From Prasinococcaceae sp. CCMP 1430 (lineage: Eukaryota; Prasinodermophyta; Palmophyllophyceae; Prasinococcales; Prasinococcaceae): a DNA stretch of 64,000 nucleotides. The translations under genes were made by a program, and so were the position numbers. A model generated the notes under the pieces. It was given only the letters and a program-made list of their open reading frames with translations, searched no databases and was not told the origin of the DNA. Below are positions 1,902 to 37,466 of the stretch, piece by piece. Where the stretch lies: NCBI GenBank assembly GCA_013416795.1, contig RQSC01000523.1, positions 14,056 to 78,055 on the forward strand. Reading direction: 5' to 3'. Positions within the stretch are counted from its first letter, which is position 1, and every line of letters starts with the position of its first letter.

Positions 1902-3009
1902 GCGCGCCCTCAGGCTGCGGCGCGCGTCCACGCGCGCGCCCGCGCGCGCCCTCGCGCGCCGCTACCGCGCTCCCCCGCCGCGCGCGTTCGCGCGCGCGCT
2001 CGCGCGTCGCCTCCGCGCTGCTGCTATCGCCTCGCGCGGCGGCTGCCGCTTCCGGCCGGCCACACACGTGTGGGTGGTTCCGCCGATCGTCCCCCGACGC
2101 TCCCTCGCTCACGATCAAAAAGCAACGACAAACAGAGGCCCTCATCAGCGCACGAAGCCATTCTTCCCATTCCTGTTTTCCTATCCTTCCCGGGCTTCAG
2201 CCTCGTGCAGGCGTTGCCGTTGTTTCCGTCCGGCGCAGCGATGCTCCATCAAGCCTGCGATGCTCGATCAATCAAGCTTGCGATGCGGGCGCCGGCCTCC
2301 TCGCTGCTGGGGCGGTTCGTTCGATCGACAGAGGTTTGTTCGCGTCGTCGCACGCACGAGCGCTTGGCCCGGATTTTGTTCTCGATCGTTTCTTTTTGAT
2401 TTTCAAGAGCTTCACATTCGCAACAACGCGATTTTTCCCGCATCGATGGCGCGTCCCAGCGCCGAAAAAATCGTCCCAGCGTCGGATTCGTTTTTTGCTG
2501 AGGCGGCATTGGTGCGCCATTTTGGTGGACGGCGCGCGCCACCGGCTGGCTGGCGGCGTGCAGGGCGTGGGTGGCGGGCGCGCTCGCTCTGCGTCCCACG
2601 CTGGCGCGCGCACCGGCGCGTGCCACAGGCGGGCGTGCCCGCGCCCGCCCCTCTCCCCCCACCACCCCCCCGGCCCGGCGGGCATTCACTCTGGTGTTTG
2701 TTGGTGCGCGGCCGGGGAAGCGAGGTCGACGAGGCGCCCTCTCTCCGGCGCGCCGCCGCCGCGAGGCCATCGCTGAGGCTGTCGGCGGGGCGCGGGCGCT
2801 TGGCCACAGCCGCTGGCCACGGACCCGCGCCCCACGGAGGGCGGCGCTGCGTGGGACGACCAACCCGACTGTTCTGGCGGCTCGCTCGCGACCCGAAAAT
2901 AACAAAAACAGCAGCAACAGCAACAACAGCCAGCCAGTCACATAGGGCCAGCAGAGCCCCCCCCTCCCCTTCCCCCCTCACCCCACCCAACCCCACCCCC
3001 TCCGGATAA
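1902..3009. other. Divergent intergenic region
   Basis: About 1.1 kb separates the divergent isochorismatase-like and FUSC-like genes. It holds long open frames on both strands, but these are Arg/Ala/Pro-rich and match nothing I recognise. A CAG/CAA-rich stretch (about 2906-2935) and a C-rich tract (2960-3000) precede the next ATG. It presumably carries both promoters, but no defined box could be identified. Confidence 0.5.
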
Positions 3010-6000
3010 ATGATGGGCAACGGAGCTCTCTCCCCAGCAACAAAATGGCGCGATGGCGCGCGCCGGGCGTGGCGCGCGTGGGGGGACGACGTCATCCACG
3101 GGGCGCGCACGGCCGTCCTGGGCATTCCGGTGGGCGCGGTGGCGTTCTCGCCCGCCGGCGACAAGGCGCGGGGCTTCGTATTCACGGGATGCATCGCCGC
3201 GCTGATCCAGATCATCTTCCTCAGCGCGAATCACCCGGTGGCGGCGGACATGCCCGAGGGGTACGCGATGCTCGCGGCGCTCTACGCGGTCGGCGCCTTC
3301 CTCGCCTACGCCGTCACGCTCTGGACGAGCGGCCCGTGGATTGGCACGGTGATGGTCCTCTTCACCTTCGCCATCACCGCGATCGGCACCAGGATCAAAA
3401 ACCCCGTGTTCGCCAGTGCCGTGCTGGCCAACAGCGCCGGCATCTTCTTCGGCAACTACCAGCGGCCGAGCACGAGCTTCGACAAGGCGCTGGCCACCTT
3501 CGTCGGCGCGATGTGCGGCCTCACCCTGACCTACCTCTCCTTGCTCCTCGTCTTCCAAAAGACCGCCAGCGAGCGGGCGCTGCTGCGGTACGAGCGCCAC
3601 GTTGCCAAACAGGCCGCGGTGTTCCGAGAGGCGATGCAGTGCATGGCCGACGGCGAGGCAGTCGCGGCCGCGCAGACCTCGGAGGGCGTGGACTCCGACC
3701 GGAGGCGGGCGGCGGCGGCGCGCCTGTCCACGCGCGTCACGGACAGCCTGTACAAGGCGTCGGGCACGATGGAGGCGGTGCGCCAGGACGCCGTCAAGTC
3801 GCGGGGGGAGCAGCGCCTCCGGTGGCTCCCGGTCATTTCGGCGCGCTTCCGCGTGTACCTGCCCGTGCTGCGGCTCCCGCGGCCACTCGGCGGCGGCGCG
3901 CTGCTGGGTCTCGCCGGAGGCGACGCGCGCCTGCACGTGGCGCTCGCGGCGCTGCACGAGGCGGGCGTGCGCCAGATGCTCACCATGACGTACATCGGCG
4001 CGGTCTGCGGATTCGAGCGCGGCGCCTTCGCCCGGGCGGCCACGTGCGAGGGCAGCGCGGGGCTCGAGACGCTCGGCGAGCTCCGCGAGGCGATCGCGGG
4101 CGGCATCGCCGCCTGCAGCGAGGCGATGCACGGGGTGGTGCACCGGCGACGGACGGACCAGGCGGAGCGCGCGATCGAGCTGCTACGCGCGAGCGTCGCG
4201 CGAGGCGAGCGCGCGCTGCTCGCGCGAGCTGGCCGCGCGCGCGACGGCGGCGCCAATGGCGACGGCGCCGTCGTTCTGGACGTCGCGGACGCGGCACATG
4301 GGGAAAGCGCCGGCGAGAGGACGTACGCTCGGTCGGAGGAGCAGTCGGCGGCGCAGGCGGAGGGACTCGATGGCGGCGGCGACGACGACAGCAACGACGA
4401 CGACGACAGCGACGAGTTGGTGGAGCGGCAGCTGCTGTGGTCGACCGCGTGCGTCGCGCTGGAGCACCAGCTCAAGCTGCAGTCCCTGTTTGCCGATGCG
4501 CTCGTCGACCTGCGCGAGTGGGACCTGCGCGCCGCGCCCCCTCCGACGACGGGGGAGGCCCGGCGGGGCGCGACAGATGGCGGCGAGGCGCCGCACGCGG
4601 GCGGCGGCGGCTCCGACGCATCGGACGGCACCGACGAGAAGGCGCTAGAGGAGGAGGCGTCCCAGCCGCCGCCGCCCCTGATGGAGCGCGCGGCGGCGGC
4701 GATGCGCGGCCTGGCGCACGAGTGGGCGTCGCCCTTCAGGCGTGGCTTTCGCACCGCGGCGGCGACGGTCGTGCCGGTGGCCGTGGGCTTCTCGCACGTG
4801 GACGACGCCAACGTGTTCAGCGGCTGTCAGACGGCTGTCATCACCATCGCCATCCTTCACTGGATGCAGACCGTTGGCACGCTGGTGAACAAGAGCGTGG
4901 CGCGCGTCATCGGCACCCTGTGCGCGGGCTTCTTCGCGTACGGGGTGCTGCAGAGGCGCAACGACGTGTGGTTCGTGTGGTGGCAGACCTTTTGGATCTT
5001 CTTATGCCTGACGCTCGGGGGGCACATGCCCAACTTCTACGCCGGCATCGTGGCGGCCTTCACTTTTGCGGTCATCGGGTACGGCCCCGAAAGCACGCCG
5101 ACGGCCAGCATCTTCACGACGGCGCTCACGCGCGTGGTGGGTGTCCTCAGCGGCATCGGCATCATGGCGATATTCGTGCTCCTCTTCTTCCAGGAGACGT
5201 CGAGCGCGCCGGCGTGGTCGGCCCTGCGGTCCGCCACGCAGCGCGTCGCCGCGGCGGTGCGGCAGGCGGCAAGCGGCGCGCGCGCCGAATCGCGCCACCG
5301 CGGCACCGGCGAGCACCAGGCGCAGCCGATCGACGCCAGCGAGGCGTCGGCGGCGCTCGGCGACGTCAAGGCGTGCGCGGGAGCCGCCGCGATGGGCGCC
5401 ATGGAGCGCCTCCTCTGGCGCAAAGAGGCGCGCACCTTCTACGTCACGCACGTACCGCTGCACGCGTACCTGTCCCACATCCCCCTCGTCGGCCGCGTGG
5501 ACCCCAGCCTGCACGGCCGCGTCCGGTACGACGGCCTGCTTCCCAGCGCAGAGATCGAGGCGGTGCTGCGGAGCTTCCTCCGCGCGCTGGATGCCGCGGC
5601 TGTGCTGGCAGCGCTGGACGCCCGCGCCGCCGATGCGGCCGCGGGCGCCGCGGAGCGCCGCGACGAGGCGTCCGCGCACGTGCACGAGGCCCTCGACGCC
5701 ATCGTAGGCGAGGTGGCCCGCGTGTCGACCGTGGGCGGCTGCGCGGCCTCGGGTGGCAGGCTGGGCCAGGTCCACACGCTCCTCGTCAGGGAGGCTCAGA
5801 TCAAGGCCGCCACAGCGTTGGCAGAGCCAGCGCGCTCCAAGGCGATGGCCGCCATCGCGGCCGCCAGGCAGTCCCTCGAGGCGGCCGAGCGCGAGGCCGT
5901 GCGCTCCGCCGCAGACGCGTCGGCGGCCGGGCCGTGCGAGAGCGCCGACGTGGCGCGCGCGCGCGTGTGGGGGTGGCGCATGCTGCTTCGCGCGCTGGAG

Positions 6001-11108: not shown

Positions 11109-14100
11109 CTAGTACTGAATCTGCAGGTCGCTCTCGACCTCCTTGCCCTTGGCCCGCACCTTGCCGCCCAACAGCATCCTGCCCGTCTTGCCGTCCGCCT
11201 TCTGCATGGCGAAGCGCTTCTTGAGGAACTTGGAGGCGTCCCTGTCGGAGCGGTGGCACAGCACGCGCAGCGCAACCTGTGGACCGACGCTGCTCTGACC
11301 GGTCGCGCCGTCGCTGCCGCCGGTGGACACTCGCGATCCCACGCCATTGCCATCCTTGCCAGACGCGATGCTCTTCCAGTCGTACATATCAACGAGCATG
11401 TCCGTAGGGGTCGCCATGAGCGACACGACCGAGCCAATGTCCGTCGCGAGCGCCTCGATGGTCTGATCACTGAGTCCCTCTCCGTCAGCACGAAAGAGGT
11501 CCTTGATGTCCTCGAGGTCCTCCGATATCTGCGTCGCACGCACGACGGCGACGCGGTGCGCGCGGAGCGCGGATGCACGCATCGCGGACGGGCGGGCGCA
11601 GGGGTCAGCACACGCGCCCGAGGCAGACGCACACACGCGCGCCAAGCCATTGGGCGAGCGGGCGGGAGAGATGCGACTTCGGCACGAAAGAAGCGCTGTG
11701 GCAAGGCGCGCACCTGCGAAGAGTCCAGGCACGCGAATGAGCGCGACGAGCCGCCGTCCAGCAGCACGCGCTTGAGCGCCGACATGGTCCCGCTCGCGAG
11801 TGACGATACGAGCGCGTCGCGCGCTGCACGAGACGCCGCGGCGCCAGCAAGCGCGCCGAGCGCCTCATCGAGCTTGGGCAGCAGTGCTGACCGCGCGCGA
11901 TTGCGTCCGCGCGCGTCTCGGTCGATGCCACCCGCGTATAGCTTGCCCGTCGTTCCGAGCACATCGTTCATCTCACAGAAGACGACCCGGTACGCGGCGA
12001 CATCGCAGACGTGCGTGCGCGTGCGTCGCAATTGCTCGTAGGCCTCCGCAAGCGCTTCGGCGCCCGGAGCCGAGGATAGCACTGACGACGGCGGTGGCGC
12101 CCCCTCGACGATCTCACCGTCCGCAGCTGCCTTGACATGGCTCAAAGGCGCCCTCGTAGCGCACGCGGTCGCCGCCATTCCGATTGCAGGTAGCTGCGAG
12201 GCCATGAAGACCATGCTGTTCACGCGCGCACAAAGAGAGTCGAGCGTGGGCACCAAGGAGACATCCACTAGCTCGTCGGCCACTTCGTGCGAGCTTTCGG
12301 TGTTGTGCAGACCCTGCTTGAAGCGCGAGAGCGGGGGTGGCGGCGGCACGAACGAGTGCGGGTCGGGCAGCTCCGCATCGACGCCGTGCGCGTACGCGAC
12401 GCAGGCTTTGGCGCAGCCGACCGACAGAAGCTCAGCCGCGTGCTTCGTTGGCTCCTCAAAAGGCAGCTCAAACTCGGCCAGCGTGCAGAGCGCGTCGCGC
12501 CACATGTTGCAGACGTCCACAGCGCTCTGCGATGCGGGCGCAGGGGTGCCGTCGCCGCCGGGGCGCACCGGAGCGGGGAACTTCTCGACATCAAGCGAGC
12601 GCACGGCCCAATCCTTCAAGCGTTGGGCGCGCTCCCGCGCCCATGTTGCCGCGACCGTTTCGCAGAGCGCCGTCGCCGCCGCAGCCACACCCGCATTGCC
12701 AGCGCCCCTCTCCTCGAGGACTTCTGCGAGCGCGGCAGCCTGGCGGAGGCCCTCGGCGGTTGTTTTGTCCAGACCGTCAGCTGGCACGTAGCCCTCGAGC
12801 GCGTGGCCCGCCACGGCATCCATCTTGATGGCGAACGAGCTCCGCACTCGCGCGACGAGCACGCTGTTGCCCACTCCGTCTGCGCCCCATGCCTGCTCGG
12901 CAGCCGCCGCGAGGACGGGTGCAAAGCACTCGGCGTCCTTCTTCGCCGCGCTGGTGACGGCCGCGATCCACTCGATCGGCTCACCCGTGGCAGAGGCATC
13001 GACCGCGTTGGCAAATACTGTCTCGGCGGCCCCTGCGATCGCTTGGCAAATGAGATCTGCGTTCGCCCAGCCGGGCTTCTGGCTGTCGGCGCCCGCGGCC
13101 TGGGAGCTCAGCAAGAGCTCGGCGAGAGCGCCGGCCCTCTCCACGTTCGCGGCACACGACTCGTGATAGTCGCTGAGGTGCACAATGGTCCACGCGGACA
13201 GATCATCGGCGCACTGGGTCACGTCAAGGACTGCGCCGCCTCTGAGCTCCCCCGCACCGCTGCCCTCCGGCATCGCCCCTCGGACTGCGGCAGCGGCGAG
13301 CTCAAGCGCTCGCGCGGCGGCCCGCAAGAGCTCCCCATTCGACGCGCCAGCCCGGCGGTCGGCCTCAACGCATGCCATCGCCACACCAGCCAGATGCTCC
13401 GCGCGTGTCATCCCGAGGGCGCCCGTAGCCATCGCCTCCGCCGCGATCAGCATCTGCTGCGCACCTTCTGCGAGCGAGGTGTCGTCCAGCAGGTCGAAGA
13501 GCGACGCTCGGACCGAGGCCGCATGCAGAGCTCGCGCAAGCTGCGGCGACGTCGCCGCGCCCCACTTCCCCTCCCTGGTGGCCTCCGGCGCCAGCGCCAG
13601 TGCGGCCATCACCGCGTCCTGAAACGCCTTGCAGGCCTTGTCGCGCTCGGCTCGCGCGCTCGCCTTGCCGTCGGTGATAGCGCAGGCCTCCACGCACCAC
13701 ACTGCATGGCCGAGCAGCCTTGCCCGGAGGGCGGCTGCGGCGACCGCGGTCGTCCATGTGCACGCCTCGAGCAACGGCAGCACGCCCGCCAGGGCGAGGC
13801 GCACGCTGCGACGCGTCCACGTCGCGAAGGCCGCTTCGCACCCGAAGTCCTCGGGGGCAGCCGCCGCGACGAGCGCCGCGCGCGCGGCCGCGAAGCCTGC
13901 GGGCGCGCCGCCTCCCGCCTCAACGCGGCCCAGCGCCGCGCGCAGCCCCTCCGCCTCGCCCGCGTCGACCTCGTGCTGCGTCCGCGACGCCTCGTCCAGC
14001 TCGTCCAGCTCATCGAGCCGCGCCCCTGCGGCGGTCACCGCGCCGAAGATCGCCTCGAGATCTCCCTCCTCGCCACTCGCGCCCGCGTCCCTGCCGCCCC

Positions 14101-30479: not shown

Positions 30480-30532
<53 letters not shown>

Positions 30533-30965: not shown

Positions 30966-33900
30966 TTACACATCATCCAACGCCCCGCCTTGGTCCCCAA
31001 TGCGATCAAGCACGCCGCTGGCGAAAGCGCGAGAGACGCGCAGCCTCACCACGCCGTCGCCATGCACTCTCGCAGCCAGCCACTGCGGTGCGCCCCCGTG
31101 CGAGTCGTCGCCGCCGGCCGCGCTGGTGCCTGCGGGCGTGGAGCGAATGCAGACGCTGTGGTCGGTGCTGCCCTCGCCCTTCCACGCGTTGCGCCGCGGC
31201 GGCAACTCGCCGCGCAGCAACAGCCCACCATGGCGGCCAGCGCCGCAGAGCGCACCGTCGAGAGCGGCCGCTTTCGACGGCATATCGCCCGCGCCCACCT
31301 CGAGGCTTTCCAGCGCTCGCACTGTGGCGGCAGCTCCGAGCGCCACCACGCAGAGCGCGCGCGCCTCGCAAAGCGCCCCAAGGAGCGCAGCGCCCTCTTG
31401 CAACGGCAGCCATCCGCACGAGGAGACGTCGTCGGCCCGTGGCGCGTCATCCGCACAGAGAGCGCCACCAGGGCAGTTGTCGTCGTTCGAAAGGTCCAGC
31501 TCGAAGACGGCAGCGCCGACTCCGAGGACGCCTCCGCACGCACGGCCGACCGACTCGAGAGTCGCTGCGGCCCGCGCGCTCACGATGACGAGGCGCGTCG
31601 GACGCACTGGCATGTCCTCCGCCGCAGCACCGCCATCGAACTCCGCGCGGATGCACGTGCGCGCGTGCGGCCGCTCGAGCATGGCAACGAGCTCGCCGCG
31701 CTCGAATCGCGACGTGTCGATTCCGTAGGCGTCGCAGAGTCCGGTCCACCATGCAGCCTCGCCCACCCTCTCGTACGAGCGGGCGTATTCGTAGCTCCCA
31801 CTTCCGCGCACGCACACGTTCGCGGCCTCGGCCACCATCGCGCCGCCATGCCCTGCGCCCTCGTCGTCATCGCCCGCCGGCTCTATCCGGGCATGGCTGG
31901 GGGGCATGGGCGCAAGCTTGCGCAGCAGCGCCACGAAGCGCCCCGAGCCGATGATCTTGTGCGGCAGCACGCGCATGCAGTCGAGCAGCACATCACTCTC
32001 GACCTCTTCAACCTCATGCACCCCACCACCGTAGCTCTGCGGGAACATGGTGCGCATGAGCGGCCCCTTGGGCGCCCTGTGATGCGCCGCCACATCCTCC
32101 CAGCGCTCGTACATACGAAAGAGGCTCAGCCCGCCGGGGTCGGGCACTAGCCAGCTCGTGAGCCCTGGCGCGCGCTCGAGTCCCAGCAGGTCGTTCTGGC
32201 CACTCGGCGGCGGCGCGAGCTCACACGTGCCGCCCGCGCGCCGCAGCGCCGCGAGCACCACCGCCTCGTTTTCCACCGGGTTGAAGCTCGAGGTGGTGTA
32301 CGACACGAGGCCGCCCACTGCGCACCTGTGCAGCGCGCACTCGAGCATGTCGAGCTGCGCGGCGTGATGCGCAAGGCAGTCCGTCGCCCTCCACGAAGCC
32401 CAAAGCTCGGGGCGCACGCGAAGGTCGCCGTCGGCAGTAGACGCCGGGGCACACAGCACGCGGTCGAAGCGCAGCGATGGCGGCGCCGCGCGAAGCACGC
32501 ACGCGCAGAGCGCCAACGCGTGCGGTGCGCCCGTCTCGCGCAGCGCACGCGTGCGAACCATCACGCGCGGGCCGCTGGGACCTTCGGCGGCGGCCAACGC
32601 TGCCTCGTCGGCGCAGGTCGCGCTGCCTTCCGCGGCCGCGGCCGCGGCCGCATCCATGCCCTCTCTCTCGCGCGCGGTGGGCTGCGCGCGCTCCAACGTC
32701 GACGTGGCGAGCACCACCGCGCCTGTCACAGCCTCGTCGCCCCCAGCGAGGAAGGCCATCGCGTGCGCCGCCTGCAGCGCGCCACCGGTGCCCTCGTGCT
32801 CGGCAGCTGCCTCGCGCGCGGCCACACCGCTGGCCGGTGCCTCATCGAGCACCAGGGTTGCTTGTGCGGGGCCGGGCGCGAGCAGCGCGACGGGAAGCGC
32901 CGCCGCCGCGTCCTGAAAGGCGAGGTCGCCCGCGGCGGCCGCGCCGCGGCACATCCGCCGCAGCTGCGGCGAGCACTGGTAGTTGTACTGCGTGACCTTC
33001 CACACGCTCGCGGGCGCCGCCCAACGCACGCGCGTCCAGCGCGGGTCGGAACGCAGATCGCGCTCGAGCGCCGAACCCGGCGTGGCGTCGCGCAGGCGCA
33101 CCGCTGCGGGGCTCGGGCGACGCAGCTCGTGTTCGAGCGCCTCCCACTCCTGCTCGTCCTCTGCGATGCGCTGTGCGCGGTAGTACACGCTGAAAGCCGC
33201 GCTCGAGCGCTCGGGGTCGGGCAGGTCGGCGAGTTGGTCGTCCGCAGGGAGCAAGTGCGACAGATCGGCGCCGAGCGCTTGGCCCTCGGCGCCCCCAGGC
33301 GCGCCGCCGGCGCCGCCCAGCGCGGCGCGCGCGGCCCGCTCGGCCGCGGCGAGCCGTGCCGCGAGCCCTGCAAAGCCGTTGAGGCGCGCGAGCTCCGCCG
33401 GCGAGATGCCCGAGCGATCCCTCGCGAGCAGCTGGCGCGCGCCAACGTTGGGCACCTCGGCCCCGAGCATCCACTCGACGAGGCCCGCGTGGCCATTCCA
33501 CGCGGCCTTGCACAGCCCGCAGTGCCCCTGCTGGTTGCGCAGCGAGAAGTCAAGGCCGCGCTCAAGCAGCCAGCGGCACATCGCCACATCGCCCGCGGAC
33601 GCCGCCCAGTGGACGGCGCTACAGCCCCAGCGGTTGAGCGCGTGGCGGTCCACGCCCACGCGCAGCGCCCAGTCTGCGGCGCCGACGTGCGCGCCGAAGA
33701 CGGCCCAGTGGAAGGCGTTCACGCCGTCCTTGGTCGCGGCGTGCACGTCGGCGCCGCGCGCTGCGAGCAGCGCGCACGCGTCCTCTTTGCCGTTGCGCGC
33801 CGCCCAGTGCAGCGGCGTGCGCCCCGTGCGATTGGGCGCGTCGACGATCGCGCCCGCCGCCAGGAGCGCCTCGCACGCGCGCAGCTCGCCCGCTCCCGCG

Positions 33901-34323
33901 GCCCAGCACAGCGCAGATGAGCCGTGGCGGTCGGTCGTCTCCGGATCCCATCCCCTCGCGAGGAGCTCGGCCAGCCGCGCAACGTCGCCCGTGCTCGCTG
34001 CGTGCAGCCCGCAGCCGGGGTCGTCCGCGCTCTCGAACTGCGCGGCAGCGCCCTCGCGGCGTGCTCGCGCTCGGCGCTCTCGCGCGGCGGCGGCGCGCGC
34101 CACGCGCTCCGCCTTGGCGCGCGCCTTCTCTCTCTTGCGCTCGCGCTTCGCCGCCTGCTTGGCCTCCTCGCACGTGGGCTTCGAGCTCGACGGCGCGTCG
34201 GTCGCTTCCGCCTCCTCCTCCTCCTCACCCTCCTCCGCCGCCACGGCGTTGGTGCCGCTGCCGCCCCCCGCGTACCCGCGCGCCGCGGCGGCGGCCGCGA
34301 GGTACTCGTCGGCGCCGGCGACC
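30966..34323 (-). CDS. Ankyrin-repeat NSUN2-like RNA methyltransferase homologue lacking catalytic cysteines
   Basis: A long single frame ending with TAA at 30966. No ATG occurs in frame before the middle of the protein, so the 5' end is unresolved near an ambiguous base (34459). A charged Lys/Arg-rich coiled region (about 34050-34200) is followed by six or so ankyrin repeats (33430-34030; for example GRTPLHWAARNGKEDACALL). A domain then follows collinear with tRNA cytosine-5 methyltransferase NSUN2: QYNYQCSP, APGPAQATLVLDEA at the SAM-loop position, DRVLCAPASTADGDLR, SYTTSSFNPVENEAVV, MRTMFPQS and MRVLPHKIIGSGRFVALL. The two cysteines of the family (PCS and TCS motifs) are Ala (32442-32444) and Ser (32289-32291), and the SAM loop is degenerate. 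An enzymatically dead RNA-binding or scaffold role is inferred. Confidence 0.75.
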
Positions 34324-34337
34324 TCCGCGCGCACCAG

Positions 34338-34458
34338 CTCAACTTCGAGGACGACCTCCCCGGGTTGAGCGAGGACAGCAAGCGCATGCTGCGGTGGCAC
34401 CGCGAGCGCGCGGCGGCGCAACGCGGTGGCCACGCGCGCCACTCGGGTGGCAACTCGA
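34338..34458 (+). pseudogene. Possible orphan exon of unknown protein
   Basis: After an acceptor-like CACCAG (to 34337) the + strand reads LNFEDDLPGLSEDSKRMLRW followed by HRERAAAQRGGH, with GC at nearly all third codon positions. That is a better coding signature than the opposing minus-strand frame has here. No other exon of such a protein is seen nearby, and an ambiguous base follows at 34459. I do not recognise the family. It may be a real terminal exon, an exon fragment or coincidence. Confidence 0.35.
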
Positions 34459-34631
34459 NGCGAGGCCAAGGGAGGGAGAGAGGGGCAGCGTGGTGCGCGC
34501 GCCGGCGCGGCGAGGGGGCAGCGCCCTCCGCCCTCTGGACCTCAGACATGCGCAGTTTGCCAGTATCGATACACGGTACCGCACGATTATCGAAAGGGGC
34601 GCGGCGCAGCGGCCGGCGCGGCGCGGCGCTC

Positions 34632-35903: not shown

Positions 35904-36278
35904 GAATGCATCCAGACACACATTGGATTCCATAAGATACCGCATCAAACCTCGAAACCTTCGGGTGTGGATTCCGTGCGCCGACAGCCCTATGATCTTG
36001 ACGGCGGGCGCGTGCCTGCGATGCATGCAAGGCGGGCAGCCTTTGCGCCCTCCTTCTTGTGCGTGTGTCAGTGGGCTGGGTGAGATCTGATCTCGTCGGG
36101 CCTGGCTGGCCATTGGCGCTGGCGCTGCTGCGGGCTCGCGCCACACACGCGCTCGCGCGGGGCGTGGGACGGGGCCGAGGGGCGGGGCGATCGCGCGAGG
36201 CGGGGCGGGCAGAGGTGGGGGAAGGTCAGCGGTCGCTCGACCGCGGCGCTCGCGCGGCCGCCGGAGCCCGCGCGCGCC
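35904..36278. other. Divergent intergenic region, hisC and GET3
   Basis: About 375 bases separate the two divergent starts. It is less GC-rich at 35920-35960. No defined promoter box was identified. Confidence 0.5.
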
Positions 36279-37466
36279 ATGGTGGCCGCCGGGGACGCGT
36301 TCGAGGACGCCGAAGAGTACCTCGCGCCGACGCTGGACGCGCTGGTCGACGCGTCGAGCGGCCTGCGCTGGGTGTTCGTCGGCGGCAAGGGCGGGGTCGG
36401 CAAGACGACGACGGCCTGCTCGCTAGCGCTGCGCCTCGCGGCGGTGCGGCGCTCGGTGCTGCTCATCTCGACCGACCCGGCGCATAACGTCAGCGACGCG
36501 TTCCGGCAGAAGGTCGGCCGGCATCCGACCAAGGTGGAGGGGGTGGACAACCTGTTCGCGATGGAGGTCGACCCCACGCCGGATCCCGCCGAGATCGAGC
36601 AGGCGGGCGCGGCGGGGGGCCTGCTGACTGACCTCGCGGGCAGCGTGCCGGGCATCGATGAGGCGATGAGCTTCGCCGAGGTGCTCAAATTGGTTCAGTC
36701 GCTAGACTATGAAACGGTCGTGTTCGACACGGCGCCAACGGGCCACACGCTGCGGCTGCTGCACCTCCCCGACGCGCTGGAGCAGGGCCTGGGCAAGCTG
36801 CTGGGGATGACGCAGGGGCTGGGCGGCATGGTCGCGCAAATTGGGCAGATGATGGGGCTGCCCGGCCTCGAGAACGTTGAGGATCTCATGGAGCGATTCA
36901 AGGAAATGAAGGTGCGCTTCGCCCACGCCCGTGCGCGCGCGAGCCAGGGCGCGGCACCGCCGCCGCTCCTGCGCGGCCTCTGACGCTGCGCTCGGCCGTG
37001 CCTGCGCCATCCCGCCCAGGTGACCATCGAGCAGGTCAACGCGCAATTCAAAGACCCCGCGCTCACGACCTTTGTGGCGGTGGCCATCCCCGAGTTCCTC
37101 AGCCTTTACGAGACGGAGCGCCTCGTGCAGGAGCTGAGCAAGTACGACATCGATTGCCGGAATGTCGTCGTCAATCAGGTGCTCTACCCGGGCCCAGAGG
37201 ACAAGGGACCCCTGCTCGCCGCGCGTGTGGCCATGCAGAACAAGTACCTCTCGCAGTTCGAGGACCTGTACGCGGCCGATTTCCACCTCGTGCGCATGCC
37301 AATGCTGCCCGCCGAGGTTCGCGGCGTGGACGCGCTCGAGAACTTCTCGCAAATGCTCACGGACCCGGCGCGCGCCGAGGAGGGCGAGATTGCACACCAG
37401 AGCGAGGTGGATGCGCTGCGAAAGCGCGTGGCCGAGCTTGAGGCCAAGCTGGCGGACAAAGCGTGA
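36279..37466 (+). CDS. GET3: GET3/ArsA-type tail-anchored-protein targeting ATPase
   Basis: Exon 1 is 36279-36911 and exon 2 is 37020-37466, joined in phase 0 across a 108-base intron, giving 359 residues. It has the deviant Walker A GGKGGVGKTT, switch I DPAHNVSDAF, the A-loop DTAPTGHTLRLLHLPDALE, a Met-rich region (LLGMTQGLGGMVAQIGQMMG) like the client-binding helices, and IPEFLSLYETERLVQEL. GET3 delivers tail-anchored proteins to the ER membrane (or, for organellar paralogues, inside organelles). The zinc-binding CxxC of fungal and animal Get3 is absent: at that place the sequence is DKGPLLAARVAMQNKYL. No transit peptide is seen, so a cytosolic location is likely. The C-terminus is a short coiled coil (EVDALRKRVAELEAKL). 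Confidence 0.88.

Follow-up and report, generated by a model that had tools for sequence, protein, structure and literature searches.

We analysed a 64,000-nucleotide stretch of contig RQSC01000523.1 from the alga Prasinococcaceae sp. CCMP 1430 (positions 14,056 to 78,055 of the forward strand; assembly GCA_013416795.1), hereafter the window. On its minus strand lies a gene that joins about six ankyrin repeats to a region related to the 5-methylcytosine (m5C) methyltransferase NSUN2/Trm4, in which both catalytic cysteines have been replaced. The reading frame runs from 34541 to a TAA codon at 30966–30968, which amounts to 1,191 codons without a stop; the window has a GC content of about 70%, and this span also holds long open frames when read in other frames. 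The part attributed to the gene (34331–30966; 1,121 codons plus TAA) was delimited by its match to P0001, an independent copy of 1,179 residues from an environmental assembly, and its true 5′ end is missing from the window. GC at codon positions 1, 2 and 3 is 0.77, 0.59 and 0.86, inside the range of the active paralogues of the same genome, which counts in favour of a maintained gene.

The ankyrin repeats (33340–34013, minus strand; limits set by eye from the repeat sequence) are recognized by two Pfam families, PF12796 (E = 6e-26; 91.3 bits against a cut-off of 27.3) and PF13637 (E = 1.3e-20; 73.5 bits against 22.7). NCBIfam matches to ankyrin effector and further ankyrin models scored far under their cut-offs and were set aside as generic repeat matches. 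Within the genome (145 contigs, 24.5 Mb searched), the closest ankyrin repeats found are encoded on contigs C131 (43% identity; locus L020) and C60 (40%; L021). Although these repeats are similar to those of the window gene, the C131 and C60 frames examined contain no methyltransferase family; ahead of the repeats both have a Cys/His finger-like stretch, recognized by eye and with no Pfam finger match. A module like these ankyrin proteins may be what was fused to the NSUN part.

Behind a linker follows the NSUN2-like region, comprising the N-terminal part and a Rossmann-like core (31908–33203, minus strand; approximate limits drawn from Pfam, alignments, and structure models with their fold matches). 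The Methyltr_RsmB-F family (PF01189) matches residues 691–769 of the frame with 28.9 bits (cut-off 27; E = 1.1e-6), and P0001 scores 28.7 bits. In a sequence search of solved structures, human NSUN2 entries were the best matches (E = 1.5e-22), with much weaker ones to Escherichia coli YebU (RsmF), a Pyrococcus homologue and E. coli SUN/Fmu (RsmB). As an initial annotation of this DNA had noted, the framework is collinear with that of NSUN2. We trace the collinearity from a SAAFSVYY region in the N-terminal part, by way of motifs I, IV and VI, as far as a C-terminal stretch of weak similarity that corresponds to the pre-PUA region (31362–31763, minus strand; hhalign E = 0.0072, probability 5%). 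PF25376 and PF25378 (Pre-PUA_NSUN2 and PUA_NSUN2) gave no Pfam match in the window protein at E values up to 1; both are present in an NSUN2 encoded on contig C24 of the same genome. The full-length structure model has a predicted template modelling score (pTM) of 0.52, and the human NSUN2 structures found by sequence are absent among the fold matches listed for the other structure models.

To place the motifs, the window protein was aligned with two NSUN2-like genes of the same genome and with NSUN2s from elsewhere. According to PMC6409601, the motif VI cysteine is the nucleophile of this reaction, the motif IV cysteine serves in release, and the motif IV Asp and the Pro backbone orient the base. 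Motif IV of the window protein (32427–32462, minus strand; RVLCAPASTADG) aligns without a gap, reading LCAPASTADG against the family sequence LCDVPCSGDG; the release Cys is replaced by Ser (TCT, 32439–32441), the Pro by Ala (GCG, 32442–32444) and the Asp by Ala (GCC, 32448–32450). The initial annotation had the Cys of this motif (PCS) replaced by Ala at 32442–32444. It was right that the catalytic Cys is absent, but the replacement is Ser and the Ala sits at the Pro, because the alignment is gapless and the earlier version needs a one-residue gap. In motif VI (32277–32300, minus strand; YTTSSFNP against the family YSTCSLNP), the alignment confirms the reported Cys-to-Ser replacement of the nucleophile (TCG, 32289–32291; the TCS motif), with the surroundings kept in 12 of 15 conserved columns. 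The degenerate motif I, or cofactor loop, reads LVLDEAPASG (32826–32855, minus strand). It was placed by alignments and by a gapless 31-residue register that ends in LVLDEAPASG against a NVLDMCAAPGSK-type sequence and shares 10 identities with the C24 NSUN2; no other register of the window protein along that stretch does as well (runner-up, 7 identities). The S-adenosylmethionine loop had previously been assigned to APGPAQAT, a stretch at 32856–32879 that lies too early. Alignments also place a degenerate motif II stretch, VVLATSTLE, at 32691–32717 (minus strand; family VVAND…).

Family-conserved residues are kept at 0 of 6 positions of DVPCSG, 0 of 3 of the motif II AND and 4 of 10 of motif I (CAAPGSK); among the framework columns of motif IV, 8 of 16 are kept. 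Overall, 154 columns show conservation in 90% or more of 44 further rows of NSUN2 type, and the window protein retains 74 of them. A broad set of catalytic and cofactor residues is depleted (4 of 20 kept versus 70 of 134 elsewhere; one-sided Fisher p = 0.006), and a strict 11-residue set gives 3 of 11 versus 71 of 143 (p = 0.13); both sets were picked from general knowledge of the family. The protein shares the collinear NSUN2/Trm4 framework but differs from that enzyme in lacking both catalytic cysteines, the motif IV Asp, the motif II AND and most cofactor-loop residues, in the ankyrin repeats in front and in its unrecognized PUA families. The prediction that it is catalytically inactive as an m5C methyltransferase, first made as a pseudo-methyltransferase, is well supported. 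Because the NSUN2 fold and framework are present but the catalytic features tested are absent, we classify the putative product as a pseudoenzyme derived from NSUN2 rather than as an NSUN2 methyltransferase.

Independent copies were sought among 5.8 billion proteins. P0001 is identical to the window protein at 1,105 of 1,121 aligned residues, without a gap; it has the same ankyrin fusion, and motifs IV and VI read alike in both proteins. Together with the E values of the domain matches, this copy shows that the observation is more than a chance resemblance. Because this copy was assembled independently, sequencing error at the two codons, which the initial annotation had named as a way in which its reading could fail, is excluded, and a chimeric join is very unlikely. 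A second protein, P0002 (704 residues, another contig), repeats the ankyrin-to-NSUN join with many frame breaks and starts with the end of an aminotransferase whose gene adjoins the ankyrin–NSUN gene in the window. We considered P0002 as a decaying orthologue and dropped it: the breaks seem to have cost the adjoining aminotransferase its stop as well, which, judged from protein letters only, points to read errors. Besides these two, no ankyrin–NSUN protein was detected by Pfam domains among the hits of either protein search (the first scored the 7,992 candidates sharing most words and gave 6 hits; the narrower one scored 4,548 candidates and gave 9). These searches found no orthologue with PCS and TCS intact, nor any distant orthologue of another kind. 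When the C24 NSUN2 served as query, the best 120 of 6,606 hits were headed by P0013 (99%) and P0014 (68%), followed mostly by land plants near 42%. A related species is thus represented, yet its ankyrin–NSUN copy, if it has one, did not turn up in these searches; this is a weak absence, because environmental gene calls are incomplete. A scan of viral contigs for relatives gave four pattern matches, none of which was confirmed. One environmental protein, P0012 (806 residues), which sits on a long branch in our tree, has PCS and TCS motifs and, by eye, a finger-like stretch in an unusual N-terminal region.

The genome also encodes intact relatives. A search for the RsmB/F family gave 14 matches at 12 places. 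The C24 NSUN2 (851 residues) carries CAAPGSK, DVPCSGDG and YSTCSLNP, and two further NSUN2-like genes, on C75 and C64, have both cysteines plus the cofactor loop; the separate NSUN2 gene that the initial annotation proposed to look for is therefore present. C64 and C92 (L005 and L006) are identical over 2,254 bases and carry the same NSUN2-like gene, through assembly redundancy or recent duplication. A motif scan that took in 11 of the 12 places (C2 was left out) found motif IV at nine, the two without it being the window gene and its fragment on C78; the motif VI pattern was found at seven of those nine, and not at C134 and C78:564557. The C78 fragment first appeared in a genome match as a copy at 94% over query positions 63–518. 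At the nucleotide level (L036; G000:C78:499000-506000, 2862–4113), 1,251 bp are 100% identical to window positions 31743–32993, flanked by a lone N and by the genome's only KARI match, the 5′ part of which is missing there. This stretch is most likely an assembly patch and possibly a very recent partial duplication, and we did not use it as evidence of conservation.

A patch also abuts the gene itself. Positions 34333–34458 (126 bp) are 100% identical to C65:57961–58086, which sits inside a different open frame on C65; the copy is inverted in the window and borders a lone N at 34459. The sequence upstream of 34331, including this feature (34333–34459), is an assembly artefact foreign to the gene. 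Because that sequence is the C65 patch and the N terminus of P0001 differs, with 58 different residues ahead of the shared part, the real start codon is absent from the window; the first in-frame Met below 34331 lies at 33579–33581, within the ankyrin repeats. In this assembly, a lone N may generally be a sign of a misplaced patch.

We then asked how far the gene appears to be maintained. The window protein and P0001 differ by 16 replacements, with no gap in 1,121 residues, and the active C24 NSUN2 and P0013 by eight replacements and one gap in 851 residues. If the two pairs are equally old, the replacement rate, which is near that of the active NSUN2 pair, would be slow for a free-running pseudogene. 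In a tree of 28 rows (the folding alignments had 46 and 28 rows; all were drawn from P0001–P0131 plus genome loci), the stem branch measures 6.92 changes per column, and the long branch and the unlike letter make-up of the protein leave the protein without a secure place. Such a branch without a stop, along which many catalytic residues were replaced, suggests an old inactivation with the framework kept.

Several observations weigh against a maintained, RNA-binding protein. P0002 shows 89 of the codons in another frame, and the changes inferred there comprise four third-position and three second-position changes, or three and three without one third-position change at the edge, where one uninterpretable difference also lies; these codons give no indication of constraint near the old cofactor site. 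P0001 alters one more conserved motif I residue, and GC at third codon positions (GC3) declines C-terminally, from 0.93 to 0.80. RNA binding would be expected of the PUA part, which is only weakly recognizable, and the structure model is not independent evidence because canonical NSUN2s were in its alignment. P0001, moreover, is the sole full-length independent copy and is near-identical, and the protein searches brought up no distant orthologue. A codon-usage correlation was discarded, as an antisense frame (0.943) scored as high as the sense segments (0.864–0.941) and the aminotransferase comparator was out of frame (3 stops). Judged from these comparisons, constraint over the whole gene is likely, constraint around the old cofactor site seems weak or absent, and relaxed selection can be ruled out only in part. 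Since the searches yielded near-identical copies and no other orthologue, deep conservation of the gene and strict purifying selection on it stay unproved.

The explanation that we favour, tentatively and at a little under even odds, is that the gene is an ancient and much diverged paralogue of NSUN2/Trm4 in which the m5C reaction was lost and which may have been kept, behind the ankyrin repeats, as a non-catalytic adaptor. Its most serious competitor, which we nevertheless consider unlikely, is a decaying paralogue in which selection on the methyltransferase half is relaxed or absent, the frame stays open mainly because stops are rare at about 70% GC, and perhaps the ankyrin half alone matters. 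The additional long open frames of the stretch, the balance of third- and second-position changes, the extra motif I change in P0001, the fall in GC3 and, if real, the frame breaks of P0002 all speak for decay. Set against it are the 1,121 codons without a stop or gap in both the window and P0001, replacements about as frequent as in the active NSUN2 (given pairs of equal age), the retention of much of motif VI and of the framework despite the very long branch, and the apparent damage to the aminotransferase end of P0002, which from its protein letters suggests read errors.

Rather doubtful, too, is a pure protein–protein scaffold, in which the NSUN fold would be a structural or docking surface with RNA contact lost. 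The barely recognizable PUA part would fit such a scaffold, as would the ankyrin repeats, which are protein-binding modules in general, but the framework near the old base-binding site is partly kept in motifs IV and VI, which a scaffold would not need; this point is not decisive. A methyltransferase with altered chemistry, working without the two cysteines, is highly improbable: Ser stands at both positions, but the additional loss of the motif IV Asp and of most cofactor-loop residues makes cofactor binding itself doubtful, and the known mechanism, according to PMC6409601, requires the motif VI Cys as nucleophile. Least credible of all is a chimera, in which the assembly would have falsely joined an ankyrin gene to an NSUN gene. 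Patches do stand beside lone Ns in this assembly (from C65 at 34333–34458, and the 1,251-bp stretch on C78), but no N lies between 30966 and 34331, the identical stretch 31743–32993 does not reach the ankyrin–NSUN join near 33200–33345, and P0001 and, for the join, P0002 agree from other assemblies; P0001 by itself largely refutes a chimera.

For the favoured pseudoenzyme, we propose an adaptor role. METTL14 and Trm6 are inactive methyltransferase subunits needed by active partners; they share with the window protein a methyltransferase fold without catalysis and offer a working analogy, although they belong to different methyltransferase families. The NSUN-derived fold would be kept as a non-catalytic dock for a structured (tRNA-like) RNA or an RNA-modifying partner, the ankyrin repeats would hold a second protein, and the whole protein could act in RNA metabolism, like those subunits, either as an adaptor or as a competitor. 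A more specific version, which we regard as speculative and improbable in its details, has the protein under selection to bind tRNA or tRNA-like RNA, aimed by its ankyrin repeats at a protein partner, and to shield, deliver or store RNA substrates of the active NSUN2 paralogues in what looks like an early-branching green alga. The NSUN4–MTERF4 pair, as presented in PMC6409601, offers an NSUN fold that acts with another protein; unlike the window protein, NSUN4 is an active methyltransferase and its partner is a separate chain.

No description of an NSUN2 pseudoenzyme fused to ankyrin repeats is among the literature matches listed, in which subscription papers are mostly outside coverage. If expressed and constrained, the gene would offer a natural test of which functions the NSUN2 fold has beyond catalysis; at present it stands as one gene with one full-length near-identical copy.

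Elsewhere in the window, an open frame at 36084–36983 (plus strand) with a KGGVGKTT motif has, by eye, the look of a GET3/ArsA-type ATPase and is a candidate for that family. On the minus strand, a run of about 50 G residues at 30482–30531 lies inside the open frame of a cytochrome P450 (28794–30842; PF00067), where it would encode a poly-proline stretch in front of the P450 domain.
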